NCBI RefSeq assembly: GCF_003412455.1
Contig: NZ_QTJU01000002.1
Coordinates: forward strand, 558,001 to 622,000
Origin: Deminuibacter soli
Lineage (GTDB): Bacteria > Bacteroidota > Bacteroidia > Chitinophagales > Chitinophagaceae
Reading direction: 5' to 3'
DNA length: 64,000 nucleotides
In this document: piece after piece, positions 4,137-58,876 of the stretch
Numbering within the stretch: the first letter of the stretch is position 1
Layout: each line of letters opens with the position of its first letter
Position numbers and translations under genes: made by a program
The notes under the pieces: model-generated
Seen by the model: the letters and a program-made list of their open reading frames with translations, nothing else
Databases searched by the model: none
Told to the model about the DNA's origin: nothing

Positions 4137-4139
4137 AGA

Positions 4140-4252
4140 AGGTTCAATAGTTCAATGGTTCAATGGGTTCAATAGTTATCGACCGTTGATTCTCGAAAAC
4201 AGCCTCTTTGCGGCCTTTGCGGGCTTTCTCTTTGTGCTCTTTGCGGTAAAAA
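4140..4252. repeat. Intergenic simple-repeat patch (TTCAATGG words, TTTGCGG words, degenerate TCGAGAA word)
   Basis: Three low-complexity pieces follow one another. They are GGTTCAAT-type 8-9 nt words (4140-4175), a degenerate reverse copy of the TCGAGAA/TCGACAG word (about 4178-4197), and 9-nt-spaced TTTGCGG/TTTGTG words (4200-4245). All three recur at other intergenic sites in this window. The TTTGCGG type returns, inverted, at 56291-56342. No reading frame of interest is present. Confidence 0.6.
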
Positions 4253-17170: not shown

Positions 17171-17291
17171 CATCGAGAATTGAGAGGCGACAGTCGAGAC
17201 CATCTTAGCGAGTATTATACCTTCATGATGCCTGTTCCGGTGTCCGCACCGACATGTATGTTTAGTGTGGTGGCTGTGGGGACACAGCCAC
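17171..17291. repeat. Composite intergenic repeat: degenerate TCGAGAA heptamers plus two 4-nt-loop hairpins
   Basis: A degenerate TCGAGAA/TCGACAG/TCGAGAC heptamer block with the downstream ATCTTAGCGA tail (17173-17212) is followed by two hairpins. The first is an imperfect CCGGTG/CACCG stem with loop TCCG (about 17233-17256). The second is a perfect 9-bp stem, GTGGCTGTG (17270-17278) with CACAGCCAC (17283-17291), loop GGGA. The same block-plus-hairpin order is found near 23.3, 33.0, 40.0, 48.0, 56.2 and 58.7 kb. Confidence 0.7.
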
Positions 17292-18911: not shown

Positions 18912-19223
18912 CTTTCGTTTAAGTTTTTAATTGTTCAAATTCTCTTAGGTGAAGGGTCAAAATACATGCCCTTTTGATAGCAAATAAACGAACCTGTTTA
19001 ATCGTCAGATCAGCCTGATTTCCTTTTAACAAATAATTGACGAAAGGTGTCGTAGATGCAAAAGGATCGTGAAACCAGCTGTCAAATAAACAGTGTTCTG
19101 CTAAGTTACTTACAAAACGGCAGCTGAAGAAGATGGTTTAATGATTTGATGGTTGAATGGTTCGATGGCTTTATTGCTGGTTCTGCAACCATCAAACAAT
19201 CAAGCCATCAAACTATCAAACAA
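18912..19223. other. Gene-free spacer between degP and the acyl-CoA reductase gene
   Basis: About 310 nt. The degP-proximal part is AT-rich and should hold its minus-strand promoter; a TTTG and a TATTTTG box are present but their spacing is off consensus. The distal part (19139-19225) is a patch of 7-9 nt words of the ATGGTTGA / CATCAAAC type, the two halves being rough reverse complements of each other. No credible small gene was seen. Confidence 0.5.
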
Positions 19224-23300: not shown

Positions 23301-23368
23301 CCATCGAGAATCGAGAATCGACAGTCGAGATGATCGGAGCGAATGTTGCCGGTGGGGACACCGGCAAC
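23301..23368. repeat. Composite intergenic repeat: TCGAGAA heptamers plus hairpin
   Basis: The words TCGAGAA (twice), TCGACAG and TCGAGAT are followed by a GCGAATG tail and a perfect 10-bp hairpin, GTTGCCGGTG (23345-23354) with CACCGGCAAC (23359-23368), loop GGGA. This is one of the best-preserved copies of the dispersed element. Heptamer-like TCACTATTCACC words follow (23390-23420). Confidence 0.8.
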
Positions 23369-23419
23369 GGCGGCTGTTTTATTCACTATTCACCGGCTTT
23401 CTTCACTCACCGCTCACTA

Positions 23420-25798: not shown

Positions 25799-25877
25799 TG
25801 TCGCTTTTTTTAAACAGTTCAATAATTGGGAACAGGGAAATGTGCTTGCAGGAGAGGACAATAGCAAAAACTGGTCG

Positions 25878-25959
25878 CCTTCCCTTCGCAGGAATTACCC
25901 TGTTCAGGTTCAACGGGTGTAATCTCAGCCTCCGTTTTACGGGAAGCACCCCGAGGAAA
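25878..25959 (-). promoter_or_regulatory. TPP riboswitch (THI element)
   Basis: Read on the minus strand, all conserved THI-box blocks are present in order. They are CGGGGTGC (25953-25946), CTGAGATTACACCCG in the middle (about 25927-25913), GAACCTGA, then a GGGTAATTCC stretch and the closing GCGAAGGGA (25889-25881). The outer helix CCT/AGG closes the aptamer. About 80 nt separate it from the receptor start codon. No strong terminator hairpin with a T-run lies between. A segment ATTGTC just below the aptamer could pair with GACAAT overlapping the start codon, so control may be translational (inference). Confidence 0.95.
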
Positions 25960-26177
25960 TAGAAAAACCGATGGTTGAATGGAGTAATGGTTTTATGGTT
26001 AAAAGCCATTGAGCCATCGAACAAATTAACTATTGCCGGTTAGAAATATTCAGTCCGGCGTGCCTGGCCAGGCAGTATTGTTCAGATCGGTTATTTTGCA
26101 AAGTAAACGCAGAAATTTTAGAATAACTGTAACATTTTTAACAAAACGCCGTTTCACCAACACAAACAGTAGAATGT
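25960..26177. other. Spacer upstream of the TPP riboswitch and of the GIN-domain gene
   Basis: The stretch 25968-26032 is another patch of ATGGTTGA / CCATTGAG words. The rest should hold divergent promoters: the minus-strand one for the receptor and the plus-strand one for the GIN-domain gene. Only partial -7 boxes (TATTTTG, TAATTTG) were seen. Confidence 0.4.
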
Positions 26178-27048: not shown

Positions 27049-27120
<72 letters not shown>

Positions 27121-27130
27121 CTAAAAAAAG

Positions 27131-27158
27131 AAAGGCCTCTCCGGGGCCTTAATTTTTT
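27131..27158 (+). terminator. Terminator after tRNA-fMet
   Basis: AAGGCC (27132-27137) pairs with GGCCTT (27145-27150), followed by AATTTTTT. The T-run abuts the ATG of the GIY-YIG ORF at 27159. Confidence 0.8.
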
Positions 27159-27407
27159 ATGTTTATAGTGTATGTATTATACTCTGAACGGTTTGACAAG
27201 ATATACATCGGCTATACATCCAATTTGCCTGAACGTTTGCGTTCGCACAATGAGTTAGGCAAAAAAGGGTGGACAATCCGATATAGACCGTGGCTGTTAA
27301 TTCATACAGAGACTTTTGAAACTAAACAGGAAGCTCTTTCGAGGGAAAAGGAACTTAAGAATGCGAAATGGCGTGCATGGATAAGAGACGCATTAATACC
27401 GCGTTAA
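27159..27407 (+). CDS. Small GIY-YIG endonuclease-domain protein
   Basis: An 82-aa protein that is just one GIY-YIG nuclease domain, like the YhbQ/UPF0213 group. The strands VYVLYSERFDKIYIGYTSN carry the (V)YV...YIG pair. An LPERLRSHN helix has the conserved arginine and histidine, and the family EALSREKELKNAKWRAWI follows, with the catalytic glutamate. The ATG lies at the very end of the tRNA terminator T-run, so the source of transcription is unclear: read-through of the tRNA terminator would be needed. It lies between att copies 1 and 2, so it may have arrived as its own integration unit. Domain assignment is firm, the biological role is not. Confidence 0.85.
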   Translation: MFIVYVLYSERFDKIYIGYTSNLPERLRSHNELGKKGWTIRYRPWLLIHTETFETKQEALSREKELKNAKWRAWIRDALIPR

Positions 27408-27414
27408 CCATGCA

Positions 27415-27468
27415 GTCGGGCTCATATCCGCCACGGGCGGACGGAGGTTCGATCCCTCCCTTCGCAAC
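27415..27468 (+). pseudogene. Partial tRNA-Met 3' half with altered variable region (att copy 2)
   Basis: GTCGGGCTCATA of the anticodon arm (27415-27426) and the whole T arm and acceptor 3' strand (27442-27468) match the tRNA at 27049. The 3' anticodon strand and variable region are replaced by a small palindrome, TCCGCC-ACG-GGCGGA (27427-27441). No 5' half exists, so it is not a functional tRNA. It contains the second 21-nt att copy (27448-27468). Confidence 0.8.
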
Positions 27469-27523
27469 TAAAAAGGCTGAAAGCCTTATCAGGTCTAAGT
27501 TTACGCAGGCGCTTCCCTTAACT

Positions 27524-30258: not shown

Positions 30259-30279
30259 TTCGATCCCTCCCTTCGCAAC
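30259..30279 (+). repeat. Attachment-site repeat 3 (attR)
   Basis: The 21-nt tRNA 3' end (TTCGATCCCTCCC plus TTCGCAAC) occurs here without any 5' tRNA sequence. It is followed by CGAAGAAAAG and a terminator hairpin that mirrors what should follow a tRNA gene. It marks the right end of the integrated DNA. Confidence 0.85.
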
Positions 30280-32986: not shown

Positions 32987-33027
32987 TCGAGAATCGAGAA
33001 TCGACAGTCGAGACGATCTTAGCGAAT
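32987..33027. repeat. TCGAGAA heptamer repeat
   Basis: Exact 7-nt phasing: TCGAGAA at 32987 and 32994, TCGACAG at 33001, TCGAGAC at 33008, then the ATCTTAGCGAA tail. It lies between the lipoprotein stop and its terminator. Confidence 0.8.
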
Positions 33028-33076: not shown

Positions 33077-33103
33077 GAAGCCGGTGTCCTCACCGGCGCT
33101 TCT
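33077..33103. repeat. Dispersed 4-nt-loop hairpin
   Basis: GAAG-CCGGTG pairs with CACCGG-CGCTTC around loop TCCT. It is the same hairpin family as at 23345, 40084, 48013, 56160 and 58719, with different bases at the foot of the stem. Confidence 0.65.
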
Positions 33104-35361: not shown

Positions 35362-35369
35362 GGCATTGA

Positions 35370-35450
35370 TGGTTAGATGGCCTGATGGCCCGATGGCTGA
35401 ATAGTTATTGAATACAACAACCATTGAACCATTGAGCCATATAGCCATTT
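35370..35450. repeat. Intergenic patch of ATGGCC / CCATTGAAC words
   Basis: About 80 nt between DUF4954 and glmS made of repeated 8-9 nt words, with the two halves roughly inverted relative to each other (GATGGCCxGATGG and ACCATTGAACCATTGAG). It resembles the patches at 4140, 19139 and 25968. Confidence 0.55.
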
Positions 35451-39988: not shown

Positions 39989-40019
39989 TGTGAGTGGTGA
40001 GTGATCTGGGCGGGTACCG

Positions 40020-40108
40020 CTCGGGAATCGGGACATCGACAGTCGAGATGATCATAGCGAATGCACTGTTTGGGGCGGAGATAGTTGCCGGTGAGGACAC
40101 CGGGCAAC
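40020..40108. repeat. Composite intergenic repeat with hairpin
   Basis: A variant of the TCGACAG / TCGAGAT heptamer block (around 40021-40062) with its ATCATAGCGAATG tail is followed by the hairpin GTTGCCGGTG (40084-40093) with CACCGGGCAAC (40098-40108), loop AGGA and one bulged G. Confidence 0.75.
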
Positions 40109-48012: not shown

Positions 48013-48112
48013 CATGCCGGTGAGGACACCGGCATGGGCAATATATTTTAAATTCATTAAGATCATCTCGACTGTCGATGTCTCGTCTCCCGACGGCTTT
48101 CCCACTCACGAC
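48013..48112. repeat. Composite intergenic repeat in reverse order (hairpin plus heptamers)
   Basis: A perfect 10-bp hairpin, CATGCCGGTG (48013-48022) with CACCGGCATG (48027-48036), loop AGGA. Further on come the reverse-oriented TCGACTGTCGA words (about 48067-48090) and the CTCACGA/CTGACG words (48106-48120). The stem foot reads CAT/ATG here, where other copies have GTT/AAC. Confidence 0.75.
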
Positions 48113-48134
48113 TGACGTCTCACGATTGCCGCCC

Positions 48135-49256: not shown

Positions 49257-51111
49257 AAACGGGAAGTTTGAACCAGTAATTATAATACTTGTGTCGCCAT
49301 CTGTGTTTTTGTAACGATGCCAGGGCGTGAATCGTGAGGCGTGAGTGATCTGAGGCAATTCGAGAATCGAGAATCGACAGTCGAGACTACCTTAGCGGGT
49401 CTGATCGTGTGCTGTGATCAAGGTCATTTAGTTAAGTCACTGTTACACCGCTGCTTTTTCTCTTAGGAAAAAATTGAATATTGAAACAATTGAACTATTT
49501 GAACCCCTCCGGTCCAACTTTACACTTCAAACGTTAAACCTTCAACCAGCGTACAACACTATTGAGCTAAACTAAACAACATTGAGTTTCAGTGGTGAGT
49601 GAGTTGAGCAGGGCAATTCCCGAGAATCGAGAATCGACAGTCGAGACTATCTTAGCGGGTCTGATCGTGTGCTGTGATCAATGTCATTTAGTTAAATCAC
49701 TGTTACACCGCTGCTTTTTCTCTGTAAAGTGCCTTAGGAAAAAATTGAACATTGAAACAATTGAACTATTTGAACCCCTCCGGTCCAACTTTAAACTTCA
49801 AACGTTAAACCTTAAACCAGCGTACAACACTATTGAGCTAAACTAAACAACATTGAGTTGTCAGTTGTGAGTGAGTTGAGCGGGGGCAATTCGAGAATCG
49901 AGAATCGACAGTCGAGACTACCTTAGCGGGTCTGATCGTGTGCTGTGATCAATGTCATTTAGTTAAATCACTGTTACACCGCTGCTTTTTCTCTTAGGAA
50001 AAAATTGAACATTGAAACAATTGAACTATTTGAACCCCTCCGGTCCAACTTTACACTTCAAACGTTAAACCTTCAACCAGCGTACAACACTATTGAGCTA
50101 AACTAAACAACATTGAGTTGTCAGTCGTGAGTGATCTGAGCGGGGGCAATTTCGAGAATCGACAGTCGAGACTACCTTAGCGGGTCTGATCGTGTGCTGT
50201 GATCAATGTCATTTAGTTAAGTCACTGTTACACCGCTGCTTTTTCTCTGTAAAGTGTCTTAGGAAAAAATTGAACATTGAAACAATTGAACTATTTGAAC
50301 CCCTCCGATCCAACTTTAAACTTCAAACGTTAAACTTTAAACCAACGTACAACACTATTGAGCTAAACTAAACGACATTGAGTTATCAGTTGTGAGTGAG
50401 TTGAGCGGGGGCAATTCGAGAATCGAGAATCGACAGTCGAGACTATCTTAGCGGGTCTGATCGTGTGCTGTGATCAAGGTCATTTAGTTAAATCACTGTT
50501 ACACCGCTGCTTTTTCTCTTAGGAAAAAATTGAACATTGAAACAATTGAACTATTTGAACCCCTCCGATCCAACTTTACACTTCAAACGTTAAACCTTAA
50601 ACCAGCGTACAACGCTATTGAGCTAAACTAAACAACATTGAATTGTCAGTCGTGAGTGATCTGAGCGGAGGCAATTCGAGAATCGAGAATCGACAGTCGA
50701 GACTACCTTAAGCGGGTCTGATCGTGTGCTGTGATCAATGTCATTTAGTTAAATCACTGTTACACCGCTGCTTTTTCTCTGTAAAGTGCCTTAGGAAAAA
50801 ATTGAACATTGAAACAATTGAACTATTTGAACCCCTCCGGTCCAACTTTACACTTCAAACGTTAAACCTTAAACCAGCGTACAACACTATTGAGCTAAAC
50901 TAAACGACATTGAGTTGTCAGTGTTGAGTGAGTTGAGCGGGGGCAATTTCGAGAATCGACAGCCGAGATGACCGAAGCGAGTAATATAACTGCCGCCGGG
51001 GGCAACTTACACCCAACAGGCTGGCAGCCCGTAGCCTGAAGCTTGCTGCTAAAAAAAGACCTGCCCCCATTACAGAGGCAGGCCATATTTGAACATATCT
51101 ACGTTGGCGGA
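49257..51111. other. 1.85-kb intergenic region dominated by a tandem array
   Basis: The space between the GH18 and aconitase genes has no supported coding sequence. The longest frames in it are short and composed of the repeat words. It contains the array at 49341-50966 and, next to aconitase, a CCTGCC/GGCAGG hairpin (about 51060-51085) that may terminate the aconitase transcript on the minus strand. Confidence 0.7.
49341..50966. repeat. Tandem array of six 254-271-nt units with alternating short and long forms
   Basis: The marker GAATCGACAG starts at 49371, 49631, 49902, 50156, 50427, 50687 and 50953, giving spacings of 260, 271, 254, 271, 260 and 266 nt. Units 1, 3 and 5 lack, and units 2, 4 and 6 contain, an 11-nt insertion (GTAAAGTGCCT or a close variant) after TTTTTCTCT. 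The real period is therefore a short-plus-long dimer of about 525-531 nt, present three times. Each unit contains TCGAGAA heptamers, a CAATGTCATTTAGTT / AACTAAACAACATTG inverted pair, and TTTAAAC-type heptamers. Copies are nearly identical, so the amplification looks recent. Confidence 0.95.
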
Positions 51112-56159: not shown

Positions 56160-56240
56160 TTGCCGGTGTCCTCACCGGCAACATTCGCTCATCCATAGTC
56201 TCGCTGCAATCATCTCTACTGTCGATTCTCGATTCCCGAA
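56160..56240. repeat. Composite intergenic repeat in reverse order
   Basis: A 9-bp hairpin, TTGCCGGTG (56160-56168) with CACCGGCAA (56173-56181), loop TCCT, is followed by CATTCGCT and the reverse heptamer block TCTACTG, TCGATTC, TCGATTC (to about 56236). Order and spacing mirror the plus-oriented copies at 23.3 and 58.7 kb. Confidence 0.78.
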
Positions 56241-56265: not shown

Positions 56266-56366
56266 TCAATGTCGTTTAGTTAAGCGTGAGTGATATTTTT
56301 ACCGCAAAGAACGCAAAGGGAAAACCCGCAAAGTTCACAAAGAAGCTGTTAACTAAACGACATTGA
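56266..56366. repeat. 101-nt element with 18-bp perfect terminal inverted repeats (MITE-like)
   Basis: TCAATGTCGTTTAGTTAA (56266-56283) and its exact reverse complement TTAACTAAACGACATTGA (56349-56366) flank 65 nt containing CGCAAAG words with ~9-nt spacing. Almost the same ends (CAATGTCATTTAGTTAA and AACTAAACAACATTG) occur inside every unit of the array at 49.3-50.9 kb. Inverted ends of this size on a short non-coding body suggest a non-autonomous transposon derivative. Confidence 0.65.
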
Positions 56367-56388
56367 CTGACGATTCAGGAAGTGAACT

Positions 56389-56620
56389 CGCCAAGATAGT
56401 CTCGACTGTCGATTCTCGATTCTCGAAATTGGCACTCGCTAAGATCACTCACGACTGAAAAACAGCTGCAAGCTTCAAGCTATCAGCTGCAAGCTTGTTC
56501 AGTATTTATCACCTCCGGCGAAAGTTATGATACTCGCTAAGATAGTGTCGACGTGTCGATTCTCGAAAATGGTACTCGCTCAGATCATCTCGACTGTCGA
56601 TGTCTCGATTCTCGAAAATG
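56389..56620. repeat. Reverse-oriented TCGAGAA blocks and AGCTGCA heptamers
   Basis: Reverse TCGACTG / TCGATTC words with the CGCTAAGAT lead occur at 56389-56430, 56529-56570 and 56576-56620. Between them, AGCTGCA, AGCTTCA, AGCTATC, AGCTGCA and AGCTTGT are phased by exactly 7 nt from 56464. ACTCACG words follow the blocks at 56449 and 56636. Confidence 0.7.
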
Positions 56621-56657
56621 GTACCCGCTACGATCACTCACGATTGACGTCTCACGA

Positions 56658-58571: not shown

Positions 58572-58592
58572 CATGAGCGTGAATCGTCAGTT

Positions 58593-58655
58593 GTGAGTGG
58601 TGAGTGGTGAGTGGTGAGTTGTGAGTGGTGAGTGGTGAGTGGTGAGTGGTGAGTG
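58593..58655. repeat. GTGAGTG heptamer microsatellite (nine units)
   Basis: Nine head-to-tail 7-mers; eight are GTGAGTG and the fourth is GTGAGTT. They are followed at once by TC-ATTCGAGAA heptamers. The reverse complement CACTCAC is found as a shorter run at 58849-58876. Confidence 0.95.
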
Positions 58656-58658
58656 TCA

Positions 58659-58742
58659 TTCGAGAATCGAGAATCGACAGTCGAGACGATCGCAGCGAGA
58701 CCATAGATGGAAGCGAACGTTGCCGGTGAGGACACCGGCAAC
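58659..58742. repeat. Composite intergenic repeat with hairpin
   Basis: TCGAGAA (twice), TCGACAG, TCGAGAC and a GCAGCGA tail (58660-58701) are followed by a perfect 10-bp hairpin, GTTGCCGGTG (58719-58728) with CACCGGCAAC (58733-58742), loop AGGA. Confidence 0.82.
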
Positions 58743-58755
58743 GGCAGTATAAAAG

Positions 58756-58798
58756 AAAGCCCCCGCTCCCGGCTTAGCCGGAAGCGGGGGCTTTTTTA
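58756..58798 (+). terminator. Terminator of the SDR gene
   Basis: AAAGCCCCCGCT pairs with AGCGGGGGCTTT (58757-58793) with an inner CCGGC/GCCGG stem, followed by TTTTATT. Confidence 0.92.
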
Positions 58799-58801
58799 TT
58801 C

Positions 58802-58876
58802 ACTATTGACTATTCACTATTGACTATTCACCAATGATCCCCTTCGCCTACTCACCACTCACCACTCACCACTCAC
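58802..58876. repeat. ACTATTG and CACTCAC heptamers
   Basis: ACTATTG, ACTATTC, ACTATTG, ACTATTC are phased by 7 nt (58802-58829). After a short gap, three perfect CACTCAC units and one imperfect one follow (58849-58876), running into the next terminator. Confidence 0.82.

Follow-up and report, generated by a model that had tools for sequence, protein, structure and literature searches.

Hairpins of a new REP family, of an already known type, within convergent heptamer arms in the intergenic spacers of Deminuibacter soli

At 23.3 kb in a 64,000-nucleotide stretch of the Deminuibacter soli genome (the window; C17:558001-622000 of a 5.83-Mb genome in 24 contigs, 99.8% complete), a block of heptamer repeats, a short tail and a GC-rich hairpin stand side by side, which raises the question of whether these parts form one mobile unit or are separate elements that share a site. 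The sequence-only reading of this DNA had placed block and hairpin together at seven loci, and both are present at all seven (17.2, 23.3, 33.0, 40.0, 48.0, 56.2 and 58.7 kb), with the hairpin on the tail side of the block in each case and a degenerate tail at 48.0 kb. That list was incomplete, as blocks lacking a hairpin also occur at 49.36-50.98 kb and 56.39-56.65 kb. The answer that we consider quite probable is that two kinds of dispersed DNA share one spacer architecture, namely the REP hairpins of the host's own RAYT and convergent arms made of heptads. The features of the window are listed below.

23304-23330, plus strand: TCGAGAA-type heptamer block (family B), TCGAGAATCGAGAATCGACAGTCGAGA, four heptads
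23332-23342, plus strand: tail, GATCGGAGCGA
23345-23371, plus strand: REP hairpin GTTGCCGGTG-GGGA-CACCGGCAAC (23345-23368) with the 3' tag GGC
23381-23393, minus strand: GTGAATA-type heptad array, which closes the inverted arm of the 23.3-kb copy
17173-17211, plus strand: degenerate B block and tail CATCTTAGCGA
17238-17291: inverted pair of REP hairpins of two stem types (17238-17251 minus, 17270-17291 plus)
32987-33025, plus strand: B block and tail
33080-33097, minus strand: REP hairpin
39990-40060, plus strand: GTGAGTG array, B block and tail
40088-40103, plus strand: REP hairpin, with a one-base bulge further out in the stem
48013-48036, plus strand: REP hairpin
48052-48116, minus strand: degenerate tail, B block and GTCAGTC array, reading toward the REP
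49354-50983, plus strand: six-fold tandem composite with a unit of about 260 bp, B blocks and tails, no REP
56160-56239, minus strand: REP hairpin (56160-56181), tail (56201-56211) and B block (56213-56239)
56388-56648, minus strand: B blocks, tails and a GTCAATC array, no REP
58579-58876: the fullest composite, with a GTGAGTG array (plus), B block and tail (plus), REP (58718-58743) and inverted GTGAATA and GTGAGTG arrays (minus)

The composite at 58579-58876 folds as a single long hairpin (z -15.6), and the 23.3-kb copy has a fold z of -3.8. The six-fold tandem (repeat units at 49354-50959), which carries a heptamer block in each unit, adjoins a chitinase-like gene. The composite at 56370-56657 is nearly identical (91-95%) to C17:671143-672336, 57 kb away, and this second site holds several tandem copies of the heptamer composite. 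Other features of the window include a tRNA-Met gene followed by a small ORF that by eye resembles a GIY-YIG endonuclease and then by a copy of the tRNA 3' end (27049-27480); the tRNA-Met 3' end recurs at 30259-30279, and the whole may constitute a small tRNA-linked integrated element. A TPP riboswitch lies at 25864-25963, upstream of a TonB-dependent receptor gene. In the host genome, a TonB-dependent receptor gene that includes a carboxypeptidase-like domain, taken with the type of RAYT, points to Bacteroidota.

With a sequence of its own, the hairpin belongs among REP/BIME-type elements, as it is tagged, forms inverted dimers, is extragenic and flanks a resident RAYT gene in the same form; the likeness to REP/BIME elements drawn from the letters alone therefore stands for the hairpin. 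Exact hairpin cores number 157 genome-wide and fall into two types (76 and 81), with a perfect stem, typically of 9-11 bp, that comes in two covarying versions below an NGGA loop. As the apex GTG-NGGA-CAC was the search pattern for copies, its invariance is no evidence, and the identity of the hairpin is supported instead by its stem covariation and its tag. In 61 distinct copies the outer stem pairs covary at pair 4 (GC in 33, TA in 28) and at pair 6 (CG in 33, GC in 28), and an unpaired GGCR tag occurs at one side only of the foot (G 0.87, G 0.95, C 0.92, A/G 0.88), its bases not pairing with the opposite side of the hairpin. Inverted dimers of the BIME/REPIN kind are frequent and mix the stem types, as in the pair at 17238 (minus) and 17270 (plus). 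A GTAG-type tag is absent from the host REP, where the tag is GGCR/YGCC, and an Rfam search over the elements matched no family. REPs of the GGCTGTG type also occur in regular tandem clusters at C18:349078-349862 (seven copies) and C24:154902-155216 (five copies).

The resident RAYT is encoded at C11:59283-59765 (171 aa) and was found with a RAYT protein query. Arrays of the host hairpin flank the gene, with six copies to one side of it and four to the opposite side, and no heptamers were seen at this locus. The earlier statement that the window holds no RAYT is right but misleading, as the gene lies on contig C11 between arrays of the same hairpin. The protein carries the motifs NHLH, FWQ and YIHENP and matches NF047646 (REP-associated tyrosine transposase) with an E value of 9.8e-21 and 74.2 bits against a cut-off of 80, and it falls just under the curated NCBIfam and Pfam cut-offs; its best PDB match, a weak one, is TnpAREP 4er8. 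Its motifs are close to those of the Bacteroidetes TnpAREP subclass 2.6 (RAYT group 5), matching NH[LIV]H and WQ and differing at one place from YIH[QN]NP. A search with Y1_Tnp (PF01797) missed the true RAYT and returned a lone IS200-like ORF in an aro gene cluster, without flanking hairpins. The single IS200-like Y1 gene among aromatic-amino-acid pathway genes (L089, C17:415449-415784) is perhaps domesticated.

The pairing of hairpin and RAYT extends to relatives of the host. The exact CCGG-type core is found in just two of 146 other relatives (G104 and G118) and adjoins a RAYT gene in both. Among the 22 RAYT loci of relatives with full flanks, 19 have TCY-loop hairpins within 400 bp, at a density of 2.96/kb versus 0.014/kb in control DNA of other relatives, and the nearest hairpin pairs are inverted in 13 of 16. 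These hairpins share the design of the host REP. By analogy with studied RAYTs, the host protein (TnpAREP, an HUH nuclease) would bind the hairpin in single-stranded form by recognising it together with its one-sided YGCC/GGCR tag, cut next to it and join it to DNA at another site, and copies would survive in spacers away from promoters and genes. Mobility of the REP through the RAYT is supported by this anatomy, from which we infer both cleavage and movement.

Quentin et al. 2018 (PMC6006769) report that subclass 2.6 comes mostly from Bacteroidetes and is bordered by 'atypical secondary structures' that recur at other sites of the genome. The host system has in common with it the HUH motif NHLH, WQ and YIHxNP, and a hairpin-flanked gene with further hairpin copies in the genome; whereas the main text of that paper leaves the subclass 2.6 hairpins at the phrase just quoted, those of the host have a defined apex, two covarying stems and an unpaired tag. 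GTAG defines the canonical groups, and subclass 2.6, with which the host RAYT is compared, is described as atypical. The host REP appears to be an element of the kind that Quentin et al. describe, for which a form is now defined. With the REP/BIME elements and REPINs of E. coli it shares GC-rich tagged hairpins, inverted dimers, an extragenic location and a resident RAYT, but it has no GTAG tag, its stem and loop are different and it has heptad arms in addition. The consensus GGGGWSAS of TIRYT-associated inverted repeats (Di Nocera et al. 2013, PMC3733652) fits the host apex GGGGACAC, although TIRYT repeats belong mostly to subclass 2.1 according to Quentin et al. and the host protein has motifs like those of 2.6. 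The host therefore has a new REP family of a known kind, lying within convergent heptamer arms.

The heptamer block is one of several families of 7-nt-periodic arrays and forms a class separate from the hairpin. Spacer and gene statistics come from 1.587 Mb of the host genome, in which 1218 genes were called from ORFs and codon use (85% coding). The lag-7 score is 49.9 per 10 kb of spacer, compared with 0.2 in shuffled sequence and 0.3 in genes; the lag-8 score is 10.5, and other lags are near zero except near-multiples. The families in host spacers are TCGAGAA, GTGAGTG/GTGAATA/GTCAATA, AGCTGCA and AAACGTT. Among 11-mers, words taken from the block are the most frequent in spacers, with TCGAGAATCGA counted 115 times in 0.23 Mb of spacers versus three times in 1.34 Mb of genes, and the 114 matches to TCGAGANTCGAGA genome-wide are nearly all intergenic where sampled. 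A tail follows within 20 nt downstream of 120 of the 150 intergenic blocks, and a GATCTTAGCGA-type tail also trails several heptad families. Through shared repeats, 162 of the 730 sampled spacers are linked to one another. Spacer repeats of 8-nt period, GTTCAATA and GATGGTTT, occur in the window at 4138-4177, 19132-19221 and 35368-35440, and inverted 55-bp repeats of 9-nt period (CTTTGCGGC-type) at 4198-4252 and 56296-56350 are 85% complementary.

Two expectations of the sequence-only reading, that copies lie in spacers and seldom in genes and that they concentrate at gene 3' ends, are borne out in the sampled DNA. Of 157 blocks, 150 are intergenic, as are 61 of 63 hairpins, and, against all spacers, blocks are found in 28 of 119 convergent, 37 of 318 tandem and only 4 of 157 divergent spacers, the avoidance of divergent spacers being significant (p 8e-6). 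Coding DNA is occasionally involved in relatives: the gcvP genes of G007 and G013 carry an in-frame heptad array at the same loop, a segment of 61 residues in G013 versus 31-40 in the other relatives read, so arrays can arise in or insert into coding DNA if no stop codon results. The distribution across genomes is uneven. The exact heptamer core was not found in 98 other relatives, the core with its tail had no match in the genome_contigs collection (from which the host's own genome may be left out), the GTGAATA family is patchy (18 of 59 genomes searched), and the 7-nt signal is present in G003 and G021 and absent in G004 and G018. Heptamers and RAYT co-occur weakly across genomes (16/18 versus 24/41, p 0.03), and a RAYT origin of the heptads is therefore rejected.

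Block and hairpin are nevertheless associated in an ordered way. As about 0.39 Mb of the 1.59-Mb sample had been chosen for motif matches, the association tests were rerun on the 1.2 Mb that had not. In this part a block lies near 10 of 24 hairpin clusters versus 2.6 +/- 1.5 expected (maximum 7 in 500 draws), which upholds the proposed proximity above chance, and arrays of the two main families lie near 13 and 10 of the 24 REP clusters versus 2.8 and 2.6 expected. These arrays read toward the REP cluster 24:1 and 21:0 over the whole sample (45:1 together) and 15:0 and 10:0 in the unpicked part. The parts are not always together, since for 46 of 56 intergenic blocks in the unpicked DNA no REP lies within the 150 nt beyond the tail, and about half of the REP clusters lack a block. 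This makes the composite an ordered association rather than a single mobile unit. Of the fixed unit of block, tail and hairpin envisaged earlier, order and orientation hold, but the block belongs to a general class of 7-nt arrays that occurs without the hairpin in the host and in other phyla.

When arrays are oriented by their purine content, those paired within 400 bp have the purine-rich member before the pyrimidine-rich one in 18:3 cases in the host, 8:0 in G003 and 16:0 in G021 (42:3 together over these three related genera), several loci per genome being included, so that these and the following polarity counts are not fully independent. Pairs in tandem spacers show the same order 17:1, so the polarity does not simply follow from the direction of the genes. 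Rehm et al. 2015 (PMC4692102) described intergenic GGGAATC heptads in Xanthomonas, studied for G-quadruplex formation, with 70-75 close convergent pairs per genome and fewer repeats between divergent than convergent genes; the heptamer differs from those of the host and no REP core is reported. At loci chosen by this one heptamer, pairs within 300 bp are ordered purine-then-pyrimidine in 31:0 cases for Cyanobacteria and in 16:0 for Xanthomonadaceae with their relatives, the latter obtained by the same approach as the 18:3 of the host. A hairpin lies between the convergent arms in 0/31 and 0/16 of these pairs, which rejects an enclosed hairpin as a universal rule and indicates that the heptads are not accounted for by the RAYT; the cores between the arms of G021 vary, and some of them are hairpin pairs. 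Intergenic heptamer arrays are also shared with the TAACTGA repeats (MacGregor 2015, PMC4679880) and cyanobacterial heptanucleotide repeats, known from Cyanobacteria and some Bacteroidetes; in the parts of that account available to us, TAACTGA stands mostly before start codons in a Beggiatoaceae genome, and convergent pairing or a REP is not described. A tentative and rather speculative generalization is that convergent heptad arrays form one widespread fold-back class in at least three phyla, with fixed purine-to-pyrimidine polarity whatever the heptamer. They would spread through a mechanism not described so far, on which REPs and other cores would be carried along or into which they would insert.

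The TCGAGAA block and tail would accordingly make up a single arm where two arrays of 7-nt period converge. As the left arm is purine-rich and the right arm pyrimidine-rich, the arms can fold back with a REP or another core between them. Layout and fold are directly observed; the arrays sit mainly downstream of genes and probably grow through slippage and whole-block duplication, and their mode of spread and any role, for example in stopping transcription between convergent genes, are inferred. That the parts instead form one MITE-like composite, with the heptamer arms as terminal inverted repeats and the REP as core, all moved together by the RAYT, is unlikely: nearly invariant order and orientation, near-identical composites at distant loci (e.g., 93% over 292 bp) and the different cores flanked by arms in G021 speak for it, against blocks and REPs that often stand alone, arms that lack any hairpin in other phyla and a resident RAYT locus free of heptamers. 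Equating the hairpins with ordinary intrinsic terminators accounts for their GC-richness and position at gene 3' ends, but it is highly improbable given that no T run follows them, that several copies have a separate terminator downstream, and that they bear a one-sided tag and flank RAYT genes.

For the arms themselves, selection as bidirectional transcription stops, in which a transcript from either gene meets a purine-rich array, the hairpin and then a pyrimidine-rich, often G-poor array, is rather doubtful. It would fit their enrichment between convergent genes and rarity at divergent ones, the strong fold, the intrinsic terminator inside some copies and the array nearest the gene in convergent spacers, purine-rich on the sense strand of that gene 49:9; tandem spacers, however, show the same polarity, some such spacers have separate terminators, and other arrays are T-rich rather than C-rich. 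Neutral slippage, with heptads as simple-sequence expansions tolerated in spacers and inverted pairs arising from fold-back copying at replication forks, is conceivable without being favored, as degenerate units, variable copy number, patchiness among genera and the arrays in one gcvP loop agree with it, while identical GTGAATA words across different genera, conserved tails and a strict polarity across unrelated heptamers, for which there is no simple neutral reason, do not. The two-part reading is preferred over these, with the REP well explained as RAYT-associated and the arms as a polarised fold-back architecture.

Taken together, a poorly described Bacteroidetes RAYT group gains a concrete REP substrate, with hairpin apex, stem rule and tag, that is ready for cleavage assays. 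Scattered reports of heptamer repeats become one testable rule, by which paired arrays converge with the purine-rich one first in unrelated bacteria. Should this polarity rule hold, much of the spacer DNA would be shaped by a process or constraint yet to be described.
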